The notes under the pieces were generated by a model, which worked only from the letters and a program-made list of their open reading frames with translations, was not told the DNA's origin and searched no databases. A stretch of 53,116 nucleotides of DNA from Cetobacterium somerae ATCC BAA-474. Lineage in GTDB: Bacteria; Fusobacteriota; Fusobacteriia; Fusobacteriales; Fusobacteriaceae. Location: contig NZ_KI518185.1 in the NCBI RefSeq assembly GCF_000479045.1, forward strand, positions 1 through 53,116, given 5' to 3'. The translations under genes and the position numbers were made by a program. This document shows positions 24,259-34,462 of the stretch, one piece after another; the stretch's first letter is position 1; each line of letters opens with the position of its first letter.

Positions 24259-25206
24259 TTATTTTTTAAACATCATCTCTCTTAATTCATTTCCAACAAC
24301 TTCAATTTTTTCATCTTTACATCTATTTCTCATAGTTTTTAAAATTGGATATCCCGCTTGCCCTTCTAAAATAAAATCTTTAGCGAATCTTCCATTTCTA
24401 ATATCCTCTAAAACTTCTTTCATATTCTCTCTACTCTCTTTTGTAACAATCTTTTTTCCAGTTGTATAGTCTCCATATTCAGCAGTATTTGAAATCGATT
24501 CTCTCATTGCTGCAAACCCTTTTGAATAGATTAAATCTACTATTAATTTCATCTCATGAACACATTCAAAATATGCTAATTTTTCATCATAGCCTGCATC
24601 TAATAGTGTTTCATAACCTGCTTTCATTAATTCTACTAATCCCCCACATAAAACAGCTTGTTCTCCAAATAAATCTGTTTCTGTTTCATCTTTAAAGGTA
24701 GTTTCTAAAACCCCTAAATTCAAACAAACTCCCTTAGCCCAATCTTTAGCCAATTGAAGTGTTTCTTTAGACGGATCTTGATAAACAGAGATTAAGGCAG
24801 GTACTCCCTCTTTTTCTAAAAATTTTTCTCTCACTTTATGACCTGGAGACTTTGGTGCAACCATAAACACATTTAAATCCTCTCTTGGAGTAATTTGTGA
24901 ATAATGAATATTAAAACCATGAGCAAATCCTAAAAACGCTCCATTTTTCAGCTCACTCTTTAAGTAATTTTTATATAATTCTGGTTGGTTTTCATCAGGT
25001 ACTAAAAGCATAGCTACATCTGCAACTCTTGCTCCATCCTTCAAATTTAAAACTTCAAAGCCATCCTCTTTAGCTCTATCCCAACTTTGACTATCCTCTC
25101 TTAATGCTACACTTACATTATAACCGCAATCTTTTAAATTTAAAGCATGTGCATGCCCTTGTGACCCATACCCAAATACAACAACCTTTTTTCCTGATAA
25201 ACTCAT
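24259..25206 (-). CDS. ilvC: Ketol-acid reductoisomerase
   Basis: IlvC converts acetolactate or acetohydroxybutyrate to the dihydroxy-acid in Val/Ile synthesis, using NADPH and Mg. The class I enzyme has 315 residues. The Rossmann motif VVFGYGSQGHAHALNLKDCG begins at residue 9, and the cofactor-specifying loop is VALREDSQSWDRA (Arg37, Ser40, Ser42). FMVAPKSPGHKVREKF and the Mg-binding DLFGEQAVLCGG are present. Class I enzymes normally have 15-20 residues before the Rossmann motif, and here only eight precede it. The ATG is fixed by GAGGAGGAG, so the short N-terminus is real rather than mis-called. Fourth gene of ilvDBNC. Confidence 0.95.
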   Translation of the reverse strand: MSLSGKKVVVFGYGSQGHAHALNLKDCGYNVSVALREDSQSWDRAKEDGFEVLNLKDGARVADVAMLLVPDENQPELYKNYLKSELKNGAFLGFAHGFNIHYSQITPREDLNVFMVAPKSPGHKVREKFLEKEGVPALISVYQDPSKETLQLAKDWAKGVCLNLGVLETTFKDETETDLFGEQAVLCGGLVELMKAGYETLLDAGYDEKLAYFECVHEMKLIVDLIYSKGFAAMRESISNTAEYGDYTTGKKIVTKESRENMKEVLEDIRNGRFAKDFILEGQAGYPILKTMRNRCKDEKIEVVGNELREMMFKK

Positions 25207-25235
25207 AACAACTCCTCCTCATATCTATTTTTATT

Positions 25236-25718
25236 TTAAACCTCTAATCCTCTACTCATTGCTGATACACCTGTTCTTGCTATCTCTAAAACATTAAAAT
25301 TTTTAATAAGCTTTAAAAAACCATCTATTTTTCCAATATCTCCTGTTATCTCAACAATTAAACTTTCAAGTGCTACATCTACAACTGACCCTCTATATAT
25401 ATCTAATATTTGAAGTAACTCCTGTCTATTTTTAGAATTAACTTTTATTTTTATTAAAACTAACTCTCTAAAAACACTCTCTCTTGAAAAAGCTTTAATA
25501 AACTCAACATCAAATAATTTTTCAGCTTGTACAATAACTTGATTTAATGTGTATTCATCCCAAAATCCAGTTATTGTCATTCTTACAGTATCCTCTGGAT
25601 ATCCCTCTCCAGCCGTTATATTTTCTATATTAATACCTCTTTTTTGAAATAAACCAGATATTTTATTTAAAACTCCAGGTTTATTTTTCATAACCAATAA
25701 AATTCTTTTGGCATCCAT
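25236..25718 (-). CDS. ilvN: Acetolactate synthase small (regulatory) subunit
   Basis: The regulatory subunit of acetohydroxyacid synthase has 160 residues. The N-terminal ACT domain (about 1-75, ILLVMKNKPGVLNKISGLFQKRGINIEN) binds the feedback inhibitor valine in characterised enzymes. The C-terminal domain (about 80-160) includes ELVLIKIKV and GDIGKIDGFLKLI. The size and layout match IlvH/IlvN. It starts three bases after the ilvB stop, so the two subunits are translated together in stoichiometric amounts, and it is followed by ilvC after 29 bases. Confidence 0.94.
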   Translation of the reverse strand: MDAKRILLVMKNKPGVLNKISGLFQKRGINIENITAGEGYPEDTVRMTITGFWDEYTLNQVIVQAEKLFDVEFIKAFSRESVFRELVLIKIKVNSKNRQELLQILDIYRGSVVDVALESLIVEITGDIGKIDGFLKLIKNFNVLEIARTGVSAMSRGLEV

Positions 25719-25721
25719 AGA

Positions 25722-27386
25722 TTATTCACCTCCAATTGTATGTTCATAAGATTTTCCAGCTGGTATTATTGGATAGACATTGTGTTTATAAGACATTTGA
25801 ATATCAACTAAATAAGGTTTATCATTTTCTAATATCTCCTTTAATCTTTTAAGATTATCTACATTATCTATTTTTTCACCCTCTATAAAATGAGCATTTC
25901 CTAATTTTACAAAGTCTGGATTAACATCTAAAATTACACTAGAGTACCTTTTTTCATTAAATAACTCTTGCCACTGCTTTACCATTCCCAAAGCTCCATT
26001 ATTAAAAATAAGTATTTTTACAGGTAGATTATATTGAGCTAATAAAATCAACTCCTGTTGATTCATTTGAAACCCTCCATCACCTAATATAGCTAATACT
26101 TTTTTATCTCTGTTAGCTATTTGAGCTCCAATTGCTGCAGGTAATCCATACCCCATTGTTCCTGCTCCACCAGATGTGCAAAATTGAAATGGTTTTTTTA
26201 TATCTAAATGCTGTGCTGTAAACATCTGATGTTGACCAACATCAGTTACTACAATGTAATTTTCATCTAAAATTTCATTTAACATTTTCAATGTAGTGAT
26301 TTGGTTTAGTTCTCTTTCTTTAAACACATCAACTTTTTCCAAACTCTCTCTCCAACTCTCATAATAAACTTTTAAATCCAATTTTAAAAGTCTATTAAAA
26401 ATATCTTTAGCATTCCCTATAATTGGAAGATCTACAACTATATTTTTGTTTATTTCCGCTTTATCTAACTCTATATGTATCTTTTTAGAGTTTGGTGAAA
26501 ATCTTTTTTTATCCCCTACTATCCTATCATCAAATCTCATTCCAACACATATCAATAGATCACATTCATCAACAGCTCTATTAGCTTCTATTAATCCATG
26601 CATACCTATCATTCCTAAGTACCCTTTATCATCTTTATTAAATATTCCTAAACCCATAAGTGTTGAAACAACAGGAATCTTAGTTCTATTTATAAACTCT
26701 CTTACCTCTTCTACACACCGAGCATTTAAAACTCCTCCTCCTATTACTAATACTGGATTTTTTGAACTATTAAAATAATTTTCAAACTCCTCAATCTCTT
26801 TATCTGTATAAGTTGGTTTAAATTTTCTCATCTCTTGAATATCCTTTTTTAAAAGTATCTCAAATAAAGAGTAATCAACTACTTGTTCTTGAATATTTTT
26901 AGGAATATCTACTAAAACTGGTCCTGGTCTTCCATGTTTTGATAGTGTATAAGCCTCTTTCAATATCTCTGGAAGATCACATATATCTCTCACTAAGTAG
27001 TTATTTTTAGTAATCGGAGATGTTATTCCAATAATATCACTCTCTTGAAAAGAATCCTTTCCTAAAAATGACGTACTCACTTGTCCTGTTATAACAAGTA
27101 AGGGTATAGAGTCCATATGAGCAGTCATTATTCCTGTAACTAAATTTGTCGCTCCAGGACCAGATGTTGCTAAACAAACTCCAGGAACCTTTTTAGTTCT
27201 TGCATAACCATCTGCACTATGAACCGCCCCTTGTTCATGTCTTGTCATATAGTGATTTATCCCTTTAAAATCATATAGTGCATCATAAATAGGAATTACA
27301 GCTCCACCTGGATATCCAAAAATATCTTTAACTCCTAAATACTTTAATGTTTCTAAAACTATTTTAGCTCCTGTTATTTTTTTCAT
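25722..27386 (-). CDS. ilvB: Acetolactate synthase large (catalytic) subunit
   Basis: This thiamine-diphosphate enzyme of 554 residues condenses pyruvate with pyruvate or 2-oxobutyrate. FGYPGGAVIPIYDALYDF and the cofactor-activating Glu in MTRHEQGAVHSADGYAR lie in the N-terminal domain. The FAD/beta domain carries VIGGGVLNARCVEEVREF. The ThDP signature GDGGFQMNQQEL...FNNGALGMVKQW is in the C-terminal domain. It is the biosynthetic, FAD-containing AHAS form, supported by its IlvN partner and by its location in the attenuated ilv operon. Confidence 0.95.
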   Translation of the reverse strand: MKKITGAKIVLETLKYLGVKDIFGYPGGAVIPIYDALYDFKGINHYMTRHEQGAVHSADGYARTKKVPGVCLATSGPGATNLVTGIMTAHMDSIPLLVITGQVSTSFLGKDSFQESDIIGITSPITKNNYLVRDICDLPEILKEAYTLSKHGRPGPVLVDIPKNIQEQVVDYSLFEILLKKDIQEMRKFKPTYTDKEIEEFENYFNSSKNPVLVIGGGVLNARCVEEVREFINRTKIPVVSTLMGLGIFNKDDKGYLGMIGMHGLIEANRAVDECDLLICVGMRFDDRIVGDKKRFSPNSKKIHIELDKAEINKNIVVDLPIIGNAKDIFNRLLKLDLKVYYESWRESLEKVDVFKERELNQITTLKMLNEILDENYIVVTDVGQHQMFTAQHLDIKKPFQFCTSGGAGTMGYGLPAAIGAQIANRDKKVLAILGDGGFQMNQQELILLAQYNLPVKILIFNNGALGMVKQWQELFNEKRYSSVILDVNPDFVKLGNAHFIEGEKIDNVDNLKRLKEILENDKPYLVDIQMSYKHNVYPIIPAGKSYEHTIGGE

Positions 27387-27395
27387 ACTCTCCTC

Positions 27396-29051
27396 CTATT
27401 TCATAACTGCTCCCTCTGATGCATCTGAAACTAACTTCATATATTTTTGTAGCATTCTATTTTTTACATTTTTTTCTAAAATAGACATATTTTTTTTCCT
27501 TTCCTCTATCTCTTCATTAGAAACTAATAGCTCTAGTTTTTTATTGGGTATATCTATTTCAATATAATCTCCATCCTTTACGTAAGCTATAAGTCCACCA
27601 TCTAAAGCTTCTGGTGATATATGGCCTATAGCTGCTCCTCTAGAACCACCTGAAAATCTTCCATCTGTTATTAAAGCACAATACATATCTAGTCCCATTC
27701 CAGAAAGAGCTCCTGTTGGAGATAACATCTCTCTCATTCCTGGTCCTCCTTTAGGTCCTTCATACTTAATAACAATTACATCTCCCTTTTCAATATTCCC
27801 ACCTAAGATAGCCTCTGTAGCACTTTCTTCACAATTAAATACTTTAGCAGTTCCCTTATGAACTAACATACTTGGATGTACTGCACCTGATTTTACAACA
27901 GCACCTTTTGGTGCTAAATTTCCTTTTAATATAGATATACCTCCACTAGTAAAATATGGATTGGAAAAATCTCTAATGACATCTTTATCTAAAACTCTTC
28001 CATTTTCTGCAACTTCTAAAATATTTCTTAATGAAACTGTATTATTTGATTTTAAAAGGTTATATTTTTTTAAAACATTTAATACAGCACTTACTCCACC
28101 AGCCTCATTAAAATCCTCTATAAAAATTGAACTAGCAGGAGATAGTTTTACAATCTGTTTTGTCTTTTTAGATATTTCATCAAAGACATTTAAATCTAAA
28201 CTTATTCCTCCTTCATAAGCTATTGCTGGAATATGTAACGTAGTATTTGTTGAGCCACCTAAAGCCATATCTACCACAACAGAGTTATATAGACTATCTC
28301 TATTTAAAATATCTCTTGCTTTTATATCTCTTTTTAATAACTCCATTATTTGCATTCCTGTTTCTTTTGCTAGTCTCTTTCTCTTTGAATAAACACTAGG
28401 TATTGTTCCATTTCCAGGAAGTGCTATTCCTAAAGCTTCAGTTAAACAGTTCATTGTATTTGCAGTATACATTCCAGAACATGACCCACATGTTTTGCAA
28501 ACTTCATGCTCAGCTTCATTTAACTCTTCTAGTGTCATCTCTTTATTCTGAACTTTTCCAACATACTCAAAAAGATCTGATATCCCTATTTTTTTACCTT
28601 GAAATTTCCCAGCTAGCATTGGACCTCCACTTACAAAAATAGATGGAAGATTTAATCTCATAGCTGCCATTAGCATCCCTGGAACAACCTTATCACAACT
28701 AGGCATAAAAACTAATGCATCAAAAGGCATGGCATAAACTGTTGCTTCAATAGAGTCAGCTATAATCTCCCTTGTTGGAAGAGAGTTATTCATTCCCTCA
28801 TGTCCCATGGCTATCCCATCACAAATAGCTATAGTATTAAATTCCATAGGAACTCCTCCAGACATATAGATTCCAGCCTTCACCTCTTCTACAAGCTCTT
28901 TTAAATGAATATGTCCTGGAACTAACTCATTATATGAGTTGACAACTCCTATTTTAGGAAGAGCTATCTCCTTATCAGTTAACCCCATTGAATAAAACAG
29001 TGACCTATGTGGTGCTCTTGTTAACCCCTTTGTTACAACATCGCTTCTCAT
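27396..29051 (-). CDS. ilvD: Dihydroxy-acid dehydratase
   Basis: IlvD dehydrates 2,3-dihydroxy-3-methyl acids to the 2-oxo acids in Val/Ile synthesis. The enzyme has 551 residues. Cluster-ligand and signature motifs are MPSCDKVVPGMLMAAMRLN (about 117-135), CKTCGSCSGMYTANTMNCLTEALG (about 185-208) and LITDGRFSGGSRGAAIGHISPEA in the C-terminal half. It is the first structural gene of the operon. The GGAGG before its ATG lies about 10 bases downstream of the attenuator's T tract, so its transcription depends on antitermination. Confidence 0.95.
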   Translation of the reverse strand: MRSDVVTKGLTRAPHRSLFYSMGLTDKEIALPKIGVVNSYNELVPGHIHLKELVEEVKAGIYMSGGVPMEFNTIAICDGIAMGHEGMNNSLPTREIIADSIEATVYAMPFDALVFMPSCDKVVPGMLMAAMRLNLPSIFVSGGPMLAGKFQGKKIGISDLFEYVGKVQNKEMTLEELNEAEHEVCKTCGSCSGMYTANTMNCLTEALGIALPGNGTIPSVYSKRKRLAKETGMQIMELLKRDIKARDILNRDSLYNSVVVDMALGGSTNTTLHIPAIAYEGGISLDLNVFDEISKKTKQIVKLSPASSIFIEDFNEAGGVSAVLNVLKKYNLLKSNNTVSLRNILEVAENGRVLDKDVIRDFSNPYFTSGGISILKGNLAPKGAVVKSGAVHPSMLVHKGTAKVFNCEESATEAILGGNIEKGDVIVIKYEGPKGGPGMREMLSPTGALSGMGLDMYCALITDGRFSGGSRGAAIGHISPEALDGGLIAYVKDGDYIEIDIPNKKLELLVSNEEIEERKKNMSILEKNVKNRMLQKYMKLVSDASEGAVMK

Positions 29052-29080: not shown

Positions 29081-29168
29081 AAAAAAAGAGCTTAAATCCG
29101 TAGACTTAAGCTCTTAAAACTTCTAACTATTGCTCAAGCCTTTATTTTTTAAACAAAATAAGGCTTGA
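29081..29168 (-). promoter_or_regulatory. Transcription attenuator of the ilv operon
   Basis: Reading the minus strand, helix 1:2 (plus 29134-29168) is TCAAGCCTTATTTT against AAATAAAGGCTTGA. The terminator 3:4 (plus 29081-29115) is AAGAGCTTAA/TTTAAGCTCTT followed by TTTTTTT. Arm 2 extended by GC (GGCTTGAGC, plus 29132-29140) can instead pair with GCTTAAGTC (plus 29103-29111) over 9 bases including two G-U pairs, which would break the terminator. This is the classical arrangement of peptide-leader attenuation. Confidence 0.8.
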
Positions 29169-29190
29169 ATATTTTCAGAGAAACAACTCG

Positions 29191-29253
29191 TCAAATCCAA
29201 ACCCAAAAGCATATTATTATAATTATAGTAAATAGGTTTTTGAATTTGTTCAT
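29191..29253 (-). CDS. ilvL: ilv operon leader peptide (20 residues)
   Basis: The peptide is MNKFKNLFTIIIIICFWVWI, with five consecutive Ile codons (ATA ATT ATA ATA ATA), then a Val and a final Ile. AAGGAGG precedes the ATG, and a consensus promoter lies 32 bases upstream of it. The stop codon is 23 bases before the first attenuator helix. Regulatory codons match the end product of the downstream genes, so ribosome stalling at Ile codons should signal isoleucine starvation. The GGTTTGGA sequence near the end of the frame can pair with TTCAAGCC, the 5' arm of helix 1:2, which would let a stalled ribosome free arm 2 for antitermination. Confidence 0.82.
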   Translation of the reverse strand: MNKFKNLFTIIIIICFWVWI

Positions 29254-29284
29254 GAGTGCTTCCTCCTTTTTCTAATTTTTATAG

Positions 29285-29313
29285 ATTTTATATTAATTTT
29301 TTTTAAATGTCAA
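29285..29313 (-). promoter_or_regulatory. Promoter of the ilv operon
   Basis: On the minus strand TTGACA (plus 29308-29313) and TAAAAT (plus 29285-29290) are 17 bases apart, upstream of the leader peptide. Confidence 0.8.
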
Positions 29314-29328
29314 CATTTTTTTATTTTT

Positions 29329-29817
29329 TTAAAATCCAAAGGGGTTATATCTAACACTTGATCCTACAGATTTACTTTTTGTCATTGTTCTTTCAACTGA
29401 GTTTGAGTGAGTCGTTGTATTTGAATTTCTTGTTGTAGTTGTCATAGTTCCATTAGAACCATATGGTTGTGTATATGTCTCAGTTTTACTAGTTCCAACA
29501 GTATTTGATGTTGACGTTCCTGTTTTATGAGTTTCTGTAACTGTTTTATTTTTTCCATATATTTCATTACTAAATCCACTGCCCGTATGTCCAAAACTAC
29601 TACTGCTTGAACTTCCAAAATTATTATTAAAATTACGTTCGAAATCATGGTTAAAAGAGTTGTTGTTTGATCCGTTATATAATGCCGTAGCTAATATTGT
29701 ATTAGCCACTAAATTCATATCTAATCCATTTCCTCTTGTTTGTTGTCCCTCATATGATGTTGCAGCACATCCTGTTAAAATAAAAAATATTAGTAAAATT
29801 CCATTTATCTTTTTCAT
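29329..29817 (-). CDS. Low-complexity lipoprotein
   Basis: The 162-residue protein has a type II signal: MKKINGILLIFFILTGC, with the lipobox LTGC and lipidation at Cys17. The mature part is dominated by Ser, Thr, Asn and Gly (SNNNSFNHDF, GSSSSSSFGHTGSG, TTTTRNSNTTTHSNS) and lacks any domain I recognise. A flexible, surface-exposed or envelope-tethered protein is likely. It lies directly upstream of the ilv promoter on the same strand, but nothing links it functionally to ilv. A second frame within it is an overlapping shadow. Confidence 0.8.
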   Translation of the reverse strand: MKKINGILLIFFILTGCAATSYEGQQTRGNGLDMNLVANTILATALYNGSNNNSFNHDFERNFNNNFGSSSSSSFGHTGSGFSNEIYGKNKTVTETHKTGTSTSNTVGTSKTETYTQPYGSNGTMTTTTRNSNTTTHSNSVERTMTKSKSVGSSVRYNPFGF

Positions 29818-30903: not shown

Positions 30904-30934
30904 AAAAAGGAGCTTTGTAAAGCTCCTTTTTTTT
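30904..30934. terminator. Bidirectional terminator
   Basis: AAAAAGGAGCTTT and AAAGCTCCTTTTTTTT form a stem between the convergent acetyltransferase and first autotransporter genes. Confidence 0.88.
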
Positions 30935-33900
30935 AGAATCTATAACTTAAACCAGCACCAATTTTCCACGAATTTTCATCTTCAAATATATATCTATAAT
31001 CTATATATAAATCAAGACTACTAATATCTATTTTTTCTATATCAACTTTTAATCCAACTTCTTTAGAAAATTGATTTTCTCTATCTACTTTTATTTTTAC
31101 CTTCTCATTCTCTACATTTTTCAAACTTACTTTTAAATCATCATTTGAACTATTTATCTCTTGTCCTAATCCACCCATCAATTTAAGAGTTAACATGTAA
31201 CTTTTTGGATTAAAAACTTTTCCTATCCCAACTTGAGCTTTTACTTTTCCAAAGAATCTATTTAATTCATCAACCTTTAATTCATACTCTCCACCTGACT
31301 CATTTATTTTATTTTGGAATATACCCATTGCATGGGCACCAAGTTCTGGCTCTAAGAAAAAATTAGAAACATTATATCTTTTGGATATTTTTCCTGAAGT
31401 TCCAACATAAAAGTTTTTAGTATTTCCTTTATACTTCTCATTTATCTCTTCATACATAGGAGCAAAATCTTGATAATTTAAATAACTTAAGTTAAACTTT
31501 CTTTTTATATCACCTTTAGAAAAACCTAAATATAAAGTGCTTATAGCTTTTACATCTTCGTAGTCATAATTTAAAAATGCTGTTCCTTGAAGAAAATTAT
31601 CCTCTCTCTCTCCAACATTAGATTTATAATCACTATCTAACCTAGTATAACTAAAGACTAATCCATAATCTGATTTTTTATCTAAATAGAACTGCTTACC
31701 TAAATAAAATCCATTTAAACTATCATCATGTCCTTCTACACGATCAAACCCTTTTTGTCTGAATCTTTCAAAAGTATATCCAACTATATAACTACTTTTT
31801 CTATCATTTCTAAGCTTTTGATTTAAATTTTCTAATATATCTTCAGTGGTATAAATTATACTATCTCTTGTTTGAAATATAATAGCCGGATATAAATCTC
31901 TACCAAAAAATTTATCTAAATAGTAATTATACTGATTTATATTTTTAGAACTTCTTAATATATCAAAAAACTTATCTTTAGATGAGTTATCGCTATCATA
32001 GTATATTTTTTCTAAAAATTCACCAACTTCTATTTCTGTAATCTCTCTAAAATCTTTTCTTCTCATATATACTGAATCTTCACTTGAAGTGACATCATAT
32101 AGATATGAGTAAGATTCAAAATTTTGAGCATCAAAAGAAAGTGGGACAAGTGCAAAAGAACTATCTTCTGCACTATATTTAGCCTGAGCATAACTCAAAC
32201 CCAATGTTGCCATTTGTAGTGCTGTATTTGTAGTTCCTCCTTTTTCCATAACTAATTTCCCATTAGGACCATTTGTTATTCCTTTAGAAGCTATAATATC
32301 TCCATAATTAAATAGAGTTCCTCCAGATATTAAACTACCTGAGTTTCCCAAATTTACAATTCCTTTATTTGTTGCTGTTCCTCCTGAAACATTAAATGCA
32401 AAGTTATCTACTGCTCCATCTAATATGTTTATTGTACCGCTGCCTCCATTTACTAACGATAAATTTCCTGAAGATGCCATGGCATTAATATTAGAACCAC
32501 CTATTGTTATCGTTCCATTATTTAAAGCACTGCCACTTCCATTTACATACATTCCACCATTAGTACCTGAATACACTCCAAAAACAGGCGTGTATGTTAT
32601 TGTCCCTTCATTTATTATTGCTGCTCCATTTTTACCATACATTCCATACTTTGTTTTTTTTATCGCTATCTCTCCTGAACTTGTATTTGTTGCTGTTCCA
32701 CTTCCTGAAATAGAGATTGCTGCTGTTCCATTTGTTAAATTTATTATCCCATTATTCTCTATACTTCCAGCACCATTAGAAACAATACCATAATAAGCTC
32801 CTTGCCCTTGATATCCATCTTTAATTGTTCCAAAGTTTCTAAATAGACTATTGGCTGTTGTATTATATAAAACAACTCCTGATCCTAAAACAGAGATATT
32901 TATGTCTCCATTATTTGTCCCTGTGGCGTCTCCTGATAGTAAAACTCCATGTTGATATGCTCCTGCATTTATAATTCCGTTATTTACTACATTTCCTGAA
33001 TTATTCATAACAATCCCATAATTATCTACTCCACCATCTATCGTTATCGTTGCTCCTTGATAGTTGACAATAGATCCACCATTCTCACCATAAATAACTA
33101 CTGATTGTTCAAATTCATCTGCTAATTTTAGTGACACTGTTCCATAGTTTGTTATATTTCCTGTTCCTGATAAATACATTGTATATTTTACATTTTCAGA
33201 GTTCAAAGTATTATAATTCAACGCTGTTCCACTACCTAAAACTGCCATTTTTGCAATCTCTGTATTATCTGTTGTGATAGTGCTATTATATCCACTGCCT
33301 CCATTCACTATAATACCGCCATTTTGAGATAACATCCCGTAACTTGTATTTATTAAATTTATTGACGAAAAGTTATAACTACTTCCTTGTCCGTTTACAA
33401 GTATTCCTGCCACACCATTAGATATATCTATTTTTCCATAGTTTTGAGTACTTGAGTTACCGTTTATTAATATTCCTACTTGGGCATCTCCTTTAATAAC
33501 TCCATTCTCTTCATTTAATAAAAATGAATCCTCACTGGCATTATTTGCTACCATACCTATTCCTTGAGAATTTATAGAGATTACCCCTGAGTTAAATATA
33601 CTTCCATTTTTTTCTACGAGCATAGCCAGCTGCTTATTTCCTACATTGATTGTTCCAATGTTCTCTCCAACTCCCTGCTCAGTTACATAAATTCCAACTC
33701 CTGTTTGAGAGTTTGAAACAGATATAGTTCCCAAGTTCCTTCCTTCTCCCTCTCCTACAATTCCCATTCCCACATCATTTCCAATTCCTTCTACAACTAT
33801 AGTTCCCTCTTCTCCATTTATTATTTTAGCTCCATTTAAAGACAACATACCTACATAACTTATATCGCTGCTGTCTCCATTTACTAAAATATTTTTAACA

Positions 33901-34361
33901 TTCTCAGCTGTAAATCCAGATTGAATAGCTCCCATACCAGTCAATATTCCACTACTTGAAGAAACTATTACATCTTCTGAATCAACATATGTATGAGTAT
34001 TCCAAATCCAATTATTTTCAAAGAAAATTTCTGTATATTTATCTTCTGGTATTTCTGGTTTATCTGGATTTGTAGGTTTTACAGGCGGTATATTTTCATC
34101 AGGTGGCACTGGTATTTCAGGTTTAATAGGTTTATCTGAATCTGGATTTATAAGAGGAGGGATTGTTGGATTTTCATCTGACGAACTCATCATAAGAGAT
34201 AGTCCCTCATCTTCAACTCCTACATCTTTAAAGTTTTTTTCATTTGATTTAAAATAATTAAAATTTGTAAAAAATATAACTCCTGTATCATCATTACTAG
34301 ATAATGATGTTTTATTTAAAATAATTAGTAATGAAAAAAGAAATAGCAATTTTTCTTTCAT
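30933..34361 (-). CDS. Type V autotransporter, first paralogue (1,142 residues)
   Basis: This is an outer-membrane, surface-exposed protein. Reading from the ATG at 34361 there is a signal peptide (KEKLLFLFSLLIILNKTSLSS), a conserved fusobacterial motif FFTNFNYFKSNEKNFKDV, a Pro-rich linker (about 60-110), and a long passenger of short beta-helix repeats of the form NNGxI/NYGTI/INxGxG (about 115-720). A C-terminal beta-barrel (about 850-1142) ends in Tyr-Arg-Phe, as the barrel-assembly signal requires. I prefer MKEK over an ATG four codons upstream because GTGAGGTG sits just before it. The passenger repeat type is that of adhesins in this phylum. The receptor is unknown. It is paralogous to the gene at 43,163. 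Confidence 0.88.
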   Translation of the reverse strand: MKEKLLFLFSLLIILNKTSLSSNDDTGVIFFTNFNYFKSNEKNFKDVGVEDEGLSLMMSSSDENPTIPPLINPDSDKPIKPEIPVPPDENIPPVKPTNPDKPEIPEDKYTEIFFENNWIWNTHTYVDSEDVIVSSSSGILTGMGAIQSGFTAENVKNILVNGDSSDISYVGMLSLNGAKIINGEEGTIVVEGIGNDVGMGIVGEGEGRNLGTISVSNSQTGVGIYVTEQGVGENIGTINVGNKQLAMLVEKNGSIFNSGVISINSQGIGMVANNASEDSFLLNEENGVIKGDAQVGILINGNSSTQNYGKIDISNGVAGILVNGQGSSYNFSSINLINTSYGMLSQNGGIIVNGGSGYNSTITTDNTEIAKMAVLGSGTALNYNTLNSENVKYTMYLSGTGNITNYGTVSLKLADEFEQSVVIYGENGGSIVNYQGATITIDGGVDNYGIVMNNSGNVVNNGIINAGAYQHGVLLSGDATGTNNGDINISVLGSGVVLYNTTANSLFRNFGTIKDGYQGQGAYYGIVSNGAGSIENNGIINLTNGTAAISISGSGTATNTSSGEIAIKKTKYGMYGKNGAAIINEGTITYTPVFGVYSGTNGGMYVNGSGSALNNGTITIGGSNINAMASSGNLSLVNGGSGTINILDGAVDNFAFNVSGGTATNKGIVNLGNSGSLISGGTLFNYGDIIASKGITNGPNGKLVMEKGGTTNTALQMATLGLSYAQAKYSAEDSSFALVPLSFDAQNFESYSYLYDVTSSEDSVYMRRKDFREITEIEVGEFLEKIYYDSDNSSKDKFFDILRSSKNINQYNYYLDKFFGRDLYPAIIFQTRDSIIYTTEDILENLNQKLRNDRKSSYIVGYTFERFRQKGFDRVEGHDDSLNGFYLGKQFYLDKKSDYGLVFSYTRLDSDYKSNVGEREDNFLQGTAFLNYDYEDVKAISTLYLGFSKGDIKRKFNLSYLNYQDFAPMYEEINEKYKGNTKNFYVGTSGKISKRYNVSNFFLEPELGAHAMGIFQNKINESGGEYELKVDELNRFFGKVKAQVGIGKVFNPKSYMLTLKLMGGLGQEINSSNDDLKVSLKNVENEKVKIKVDRENQFSKEVGLKVDIEKIDISSLDLYIDYRYIFEDENSWKIGAGLSYRF

Positions 34362-34462
34362 AAAACACCTCACTTTTTTATGTTGGTCTTTATAAACTTA
34401 GTTTTCTTAAACTAACTTACTTAAAAAACTTGCTATTTCTTCTATTAATTTTTTTATTCTTT

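Follow-up and report, generated by a model that had tools for sequence, protein, structure and literature searches.

Leader-peptide attenuation, a mechanism found in textbooks, is known best from Proteobacteria; cases in Actinobacteria and Firmicutes followed later. In the enterobacterial his and ilvGMEDA attenuators, a short leader frame carries a run of control codons, and the transcript forms either the helices A:B, C:D and E:F or the alternatives B:C and D:E. PMC5794164 cites attenuation for the branched-chain amino acid (BCAA) genes of E. coli and Salmonella. The authors of a 2010 survey wrote that, as far as they knew, no leader-peptide system had been demonstrated outside Proteobacteria and Actinobacteria until their own case in Firmicutes (PMC2965389). 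Rli60, the ilvD leader of Listeria monocytogenes, is a ribosome-mediated attenuator for which mutants of the ribosome binding site, the start codon and the terminator were tested (PMC5864092). The ilvD attenuator of Staphylococcus aureus encodes a peptide of 26 residues and is reported to respond mainly to leucine (PMC5794164).

The leader element ahead of ilvDBNC

The window, that is, the whole 53,116-nucleotide stretch of Cetobacterium somerae DNA that was analysed, carries on its minus strand an operon (24259-29051) composed of ilvD (27396-29051), ilvB (25722-27386), ilvN (25236-25718) and ilvC (24259-25206), with gaps of 3-29 bases. The four products pass the curated NCBIfam cut-offs of TIGR00110, TIGR00118, TIGR00119 and TIGR00465, respectively. 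Since leuA had no match above cut-off across Cetobacterium genomes, ilvDBNC and ilvE probably serve isoleucine and valine only. Directly upstream of the leader, at 29329-29817, lies a gene for a predicted lipoprotein-like protein of 162 residues, rich in Ser, Thr and Asn and with no Pfam match; farther away, at 30933-34373, a protein of 1146 residues has a repetitive Gly/Asn-rich passenger and is autotransporter-like in appearance.

A first-pass annotation of this DNA had described a promoter, a 20-codon frame with five Ile codons, helices and a terminator with seven T, and reading the sequence located all of these on the minus strand at 29,313-29,081. The sigma-70-like promoter (29285-29313) consists of a -35 box TTGACA at 29313-29308, a 17-base spacer and a -10 box TAAAAT at 29290-29285; by eye, the same arrangement is recognizable in relatives, at their ilvD, ilvE and transporter copies. 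Segment A (GGAGGAAGCACUC, 29254-29267) includes the Shine-Dalgarno sequence AGGAGG (29267-29262), and its predicted partner is 29189-29177. The leader frame (29191-29253), recognized by sequence and conservation, runs from the ATG at 29253 to the stop codon TGA at 29193-29191 and encodes MNKFKNLFTIIIIICFWVWI. Its codons 10-14 (29212-29226) are the five Ile codons ATA ATT ATA ATA ATA. Among the 50 short frames in the window led by a Shine-Dalgarno sequence, this is the only one with a run of at least four Ile codons, and 1,035 such frames from 20 Markov-model windows contained two four-Ile runs and no five-Ile run. The run is not made of rare codons, since six genes of the window use ATA more often than any other Ile codon (60%).

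Downstream of the control codons, segment B (29177-29203) comprises the core GGUUUGGA at 29203-29196, which overlaps the end of the frame, and GAGUUGUUUCUCU at 29189-29177; its partner is either C or A. Segment C (UUCAAGCCUUAUUUU, 29155-29169) is the 5' arm of a competing hairpin whose 3' arm is segment D (29132-29148), and the core of D, GGCUUGAGC at 29140-29132, doubles as the 5' strand of the antiterminator. Segment E (AAGAGCUUAAGUC, 29103-29115), the 5' arm of the terminator, pairs with D in the antiterminator or with F in the terminator, and segment F (GAUUUAAGCUCUU, 29081-29098), the 3' arm, leads into seven U. The terminator arms lie at 29115-29103 and 29098-29086, and the seven T at 29087-29081. 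On the minus strand from 29,313 to 29,052, the frame encoding MNKFKNLFTIIIIICFWVWI is followed by TTCAAGCCTTATTTT...AAAATAAAGGCTTGAGC and then by AAGAGCTTAAGTC-TACG-GATTTAAGCTCTT in a run ending with the seven T, after which come GGAGG and the ATG of ilvD. The intrinsic terminator thus sits between the leader frame and ilvD, immediately ahead of ilvDBNC.

The first-pass annotation had also claimed a 9-base antiterminator and a pairing between the end of the frame and the first hairpin arm. Both are real: the antiterminator is the 9-base pairing GGCUUGAGC:GCUUAAGUC, and GGTTTGGA (29203-29196) faces TTCAAGCC, which opens the arm 29169-29155, in the 8-base pairing GGUUUGGA:UUCAAGCC. The arm opposite ends in GGCTTGAGC (29140-29132). 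D:E and B:C are kept in nearly all of the sequences compared, with a few compensatory changes. Beyond that annotation, there is a sixth segment, the Shine-Dalgarno and start region, which is predicted to pair with bases surrounding and following the stop codon.

Each of the seven Cetobacterium genomes with this ilvD also has the element, at a similar distance from the gene, while the sequence upstream of the promoter varies. The seven ilvD leader frames differ by conservative changes, vary between MNKFKNLINIIIIIICFWV and MNRFENMLTIIIIICFRVWI, and each hold a run of at least five Ile codons. When the copies on other operons described below are included, the frame, all helices and the Ile-rich run (once mixed I/L/V) are retained in 19/19 elements from eight Cetobacterium genomes. 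Loss of the Ile run or of a helix in close relatives, which the first-pass annotation had named as evidence against its reading, was therefore absent. GGUUUG in segment B is invariant in the 19 elements, and so is the segment D core GGCUUGAGC in Cetobacterium. As the leader peptides diverge outside the control codons while these two stretches stay constant, selection acts on the RNA pairing.

Homologous copies on other operons

A DNA search revealed second and third copies of the element in Cetobacterium, with 68-78% identity, on other operons. The second copy precedes ilvE and a CstA-like protein, with leaders such as MNTKFKVNFLLVLIIIISSMVWC. The third precedes a BASS transporter and a lactate-dehydrogenase-family protein and has the leader MNTNKKTLATLILIIIICSMV (loci L087, L088, L090, L091). 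An Ile leader on these two genes suggests a candidate route in which branched 2-hydroxy or 2-oxo acids are taken up, oxidized and converted to isoleucine. The ilvA gene of Cetobacterium had no attenuator in its upstream sequence in two genomes and no covariance-model match.

The first covariance model was built from Cetobacterium elements only, and it matched loci in three other genera of the family with E values of 2e-3 to 8e-6. A wider model scored these loci better, as expected, since they were in its training set. With genes in the other genera (ilvA, ilvB, ilvE-ilvD, opp, engB and valS) named from reading protein starts, copies were found before ilvB (leader MTFNRFEYKFFLIIILICSQV), before the threonine deaminase gene ilvA (leader NIIIIISSQVWTV, with an IIIII run), before ilvE-ilvD (leader MINVVNRYVLISIIISGRLEE) and before an opp-type binding-protein operon (leader MSSNTLKTVIIYIHILLIS). 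Threonine deaminase catalyses the first Ile-specific step. A weaker match, L164:552-684 (E 0.0025, outside the building set of the model), lies before engB and the valyl-tRNA synthetase gene valS; its leader, MYKNAHKEVTVSIVDVRPEG, carries four Val codons (VTVSIVDV). As read from the sequences, leader codon specificity matches the gene: Ile on ilvA, ilvD and ilvE, and Val on valS. The wide use suggested by the first-pass annotation is thus borne out within Fusobacteriota, with homologous copies on several operons; a further addition to that annotation is that the ilvDBNC element belongs to a dispersed family of homologues. Two low-scoring matches, G002:C6 and G050:C118, were dropped: both are terminators that follow unrelated coding sequence and have no leader frame.

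At four loci (L138, L143, L145 and L154), a BCAA-type leader and a homologous attenuator stand before an oligopeptide-binding protein and a membrane transporter, and at L154 a gamma-glutamyltransferase-like gene was also seen by eye downstream of the attenuator. Peptide scavenging is possibly under amino-acid attenuation at the opp-type copies.

Alternative folds and rival explanations

We consider it very probable that the ilvDBNC leader is a ribosome-mediated transcription attenuator sensing charged tRNA-Ile. In the proposed mechanism, RNA polymerase would start from the promoter at 29,313-29,285 and a ribosome would load onto the leader frame. When charged tRNA-Ile is short, the ribosome would stall at codons 10-14, leaving B free to form B:C; D would then be free to form D:E, which would block the terminator and allow ilvDBNC to be transcribed. 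When tRNA-Ile is charged, the ribosome would reach the stop codon and cover B, whereupon C:D and then E:F would form and transcription would end at the U run. In case of no translation, A:B would again permit C:D and E:F (super-attenuation), with the leader's own ribosome site hidden. The sequences, their conservation, the compensatory changes and the dependence of the in silico fold on ribosome position are observed; that transcription starts at this promoter, that the frame is translated, that ribosomes stall on it, that polymerase terminates in vivo and that isoleucine is the main signal are inferred. The features of an attenuator that can be tested on sequence were all found in silico: a short frame led by a Shine-Dalgarno sequence, control codons matched to the product, an intrinsic terminator and a mutually exclusive antiterminator. 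The layout is the six-segment one of the his/ilv type, including predicted silencing by A:B.

The folding energy of the leader RNA has a z-score of -5.9, and none of 200 shuffles was equally stable. Partition-function folding was performed on the transcript cut before F, with the bases upstream of and under the ribosome removed. As the first-pass annotation had expected, the fold flips with ribosome position: in the window, the antiterminator has a probability of 0.48 with the ribosome on the third Ile codon, 0.00 with the ribosome at the stop codon and 0.00 with no ribosome. The window's antiterminator is thus only about half occupied in silico, and other Cetobacterium copies switch more cleanly. 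Across 15 ilvD and ilvE copies, the probability is 0.22-1.00 in the stalled state (at least 0.89 in 11 of them) versus 0.00-0.33 at the stop. For the transporter copies, the values are 0.99-1.00 and 0.16-0.96, a weak contrast, as in three of the four a ribosome at the stop codon already leaves D:E favoured (0.69-0.96) ahead of the synthesis of F. The antiterminator effect largely disappears when nine bases over B are shuffled: in six copies, between 0 and 8 of 200 such shuffles reached the original value. The minimum-energy fold includes A:B, in which the Shine-Dalgarno region pairs with 29189-29177 in silico; the duplex is predicted at -16.8 to -21.7 kcal/mol in the ilvD copies and -13.0 to -17.8 kcal/mol in the ilvE copies. 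For the full-length ilvD leader, equilibrium folding prefers the terminator whatever the ribosome state and so does not tell the states apart, which is why the cut transcript was used. Hence the switch must be kinetic, and the folding model suggests a kinetic race in the cell.

Two-sided changes were counted per sequence, not per event; alignment A3 was fitted to the terminator structure and not to B:C or D:E. In the 19 Cetobacterium elements, the terminator and the competing hairpin together hold 22 cells with two-sided changes, a value reached in 0/500 shuffles. In the comparison across genera, two-sided changes occur at 9 pairs and in 47 cells of C:D and E:F (0/500 shuffles as high in cells), and slid partners score far worse; E:F alone has two-sided changes at six pairs. 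The antiterminator helices B:C and D:E are 95.4% paired across genera, versus at most 64% when slid, and show two-sided changes at 4 pairs and in 7 cells (again 0/500 shuffles as high in cells). These few changes come from few outgroup loci, as both helices are nearly invariant in Cetobacterium. For B:C, pairs are kept across genera and three have two-sided changes. D:E is paired in 100% of Cetobacterium sequences, where the E core shows only A-to-G or U-to-C changes, which D tolerates by wobble and for which F compensates; across genera, 98.3% of D:E cells are paired over 27 distinct sequences, and partners change compatibly.

In shuffled-segment tests, D:E was supported in all copies except one opp copy. 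B:C was supported in most groups, with p of 0.002-0.02 in the ilvA, ilvB and ilvE copies of other genera, 0.02-0.09 in the ilvD and transporter copies, and about 0.2 (weak) in three near-identical ilvE copies; in the opp copies, for which this test is uninformative because the B window lies too near the stop codon, B:C is paired in alignment A3. The stall/stop switch proposed by the first-pass annotation is supported, as far as modelling goes, by the ribosome-dependent fold, the compensatory changes and the conserved frame and Ile run.

A strongly structured leader with a terminator ahead of a biosynthetic operon could also be a metabolite-binding riboswitch or a T-box, the short frame being incidental, and a published ilvD leader motif has been classed as a weak riboswitch candidate (PMC8632094). 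However, the leader matches no Rfam family (the sole match at gathering score in the window was a tRNA), and no T-box (RF00230) was found in the window or in 12 Cetobacterium genomes. The frame, its Shine-Dalgarno sequence and the encoded amino acid are conserved and follow the gene (Ile versus Val), while four mutually exclusive helices account for the conserved RNA. These points leave a riboswitch or T-box very improbable.

We give just as little credence to a plain intrinsic terminator with a leader peptide that acts otherwise, by translation coupling or as a functional small peptide, and without alternative folding. Such an arrangement would agree with the equilibrium fold of the full-length RNA, but not with D:E partners that change compatibly and stay paired, or with peptides that vary outside the control codons whereas GGUUUG and GGCUUGAGC are constant. 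That the element is decayed or non-functional and kept merely through the closeness of the species is least probable of all: the two nearest relatives are indeed nearly identical, but frame, codons and helices are kept in the 68-78%-identity copies on other operons and in other genera. Ribosome-mediated attenuation remains our preferred reading.

A second leader type and comparison with known attenuators

A different leader, 29-56 residues long and opening with an L/I/V run, precedes most other fusobacterial ilvD genes (loci L016-L018, L096-L124). A strand inside the frame is complementary to the 5' arm of the terminator, as in GCCTTAAAAGTTTC and GACTTTTAAGGC. These long leaders occur at most ilvD loci of one family (f4, by our reading Leptotrichiaceae) and in some genera of Cetobacterium's own family. 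The complementarity had p <0.05 against shuffled frames at 26/29 loci, many of them close relatives, and it is retained while the leader sequences diverge between genera. By sequence, the long-leader type is apparently a second, unrelated attenuator architecture. The ilvD leader of Veillonella caviae (L023:5683-5797; MLGLVISLLIIALVVIINHIRIMNNNLTRFVLEVPRMV) has a similar long-leader look; by analogy, leader-peptide attenuation may also explain the published Veillonella ilvD motif, which PMC8632094 lists among weak riboswitch candidates.

We think it reasonably likely that Fusobacteriota regulate BCAA genes mainly by leader-peptide attenuation, using two separately built architectures: a duplicated six-segment, multi-operon regulon with a retunable codon run (ilvDBNC, ilvE, ilvB, ilvA, the BASS transporter with a 2-hydroxyacid dehydrogenase, an opp-type operon and engB-valS), and the long-leader type with its antiterminator strand in the frame. 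A homologous element over several operons, with codons matched, suggests that such attenuators can be duplicated and retuned to form a regulon, besides arising operon by operon. Cetobacterium is a fish-gut genus, and its leader offers a concrete testbed.

A literature search found no description of leader-peptide attenuation in Fusobacteria, Cetobacterium or Leptotrichia, although most subscription papers lay outside the search and absence is unproven. The sequences described here would thus extend a textbook mechanism to Fusobacteriota, a phylum for which we found no earlier report. Like the enterobacterial his and ilvGMEDA attenuators, the Cetobacterium leader has a control-codon run and the same six-segment alternatives. 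Unlike them, it is AT-rich, belongs to another phylum and is one homologous element copied to several operons; at ilvD its control run is purely Ile, whereas the enterobacterial ilv run mixes Ile, Val and Leu. Like Rli60, it precedes ilvD and carries BCAA codons, but Rli60, compared here by its description, is a Firmicute system with a 13-residue peptide and a four-segment switch (2:3 versus 3:4). The S. aureus leader likewise has a peptide with Ile codons (there Ile/Leu) and a terminator before ilvD, but its proposed antiterminator, unlike that of Cetobacterium, retains the terminator stem and pairs the poly-U (PMC5794164). The ilvBNC leader of Corynebacterium is similarly reported to have a leader frame, alternative hairpins or both upstream of BCAA genes, but in Actinobacteria and on a different operon (PMC10272879, PMC11857589).
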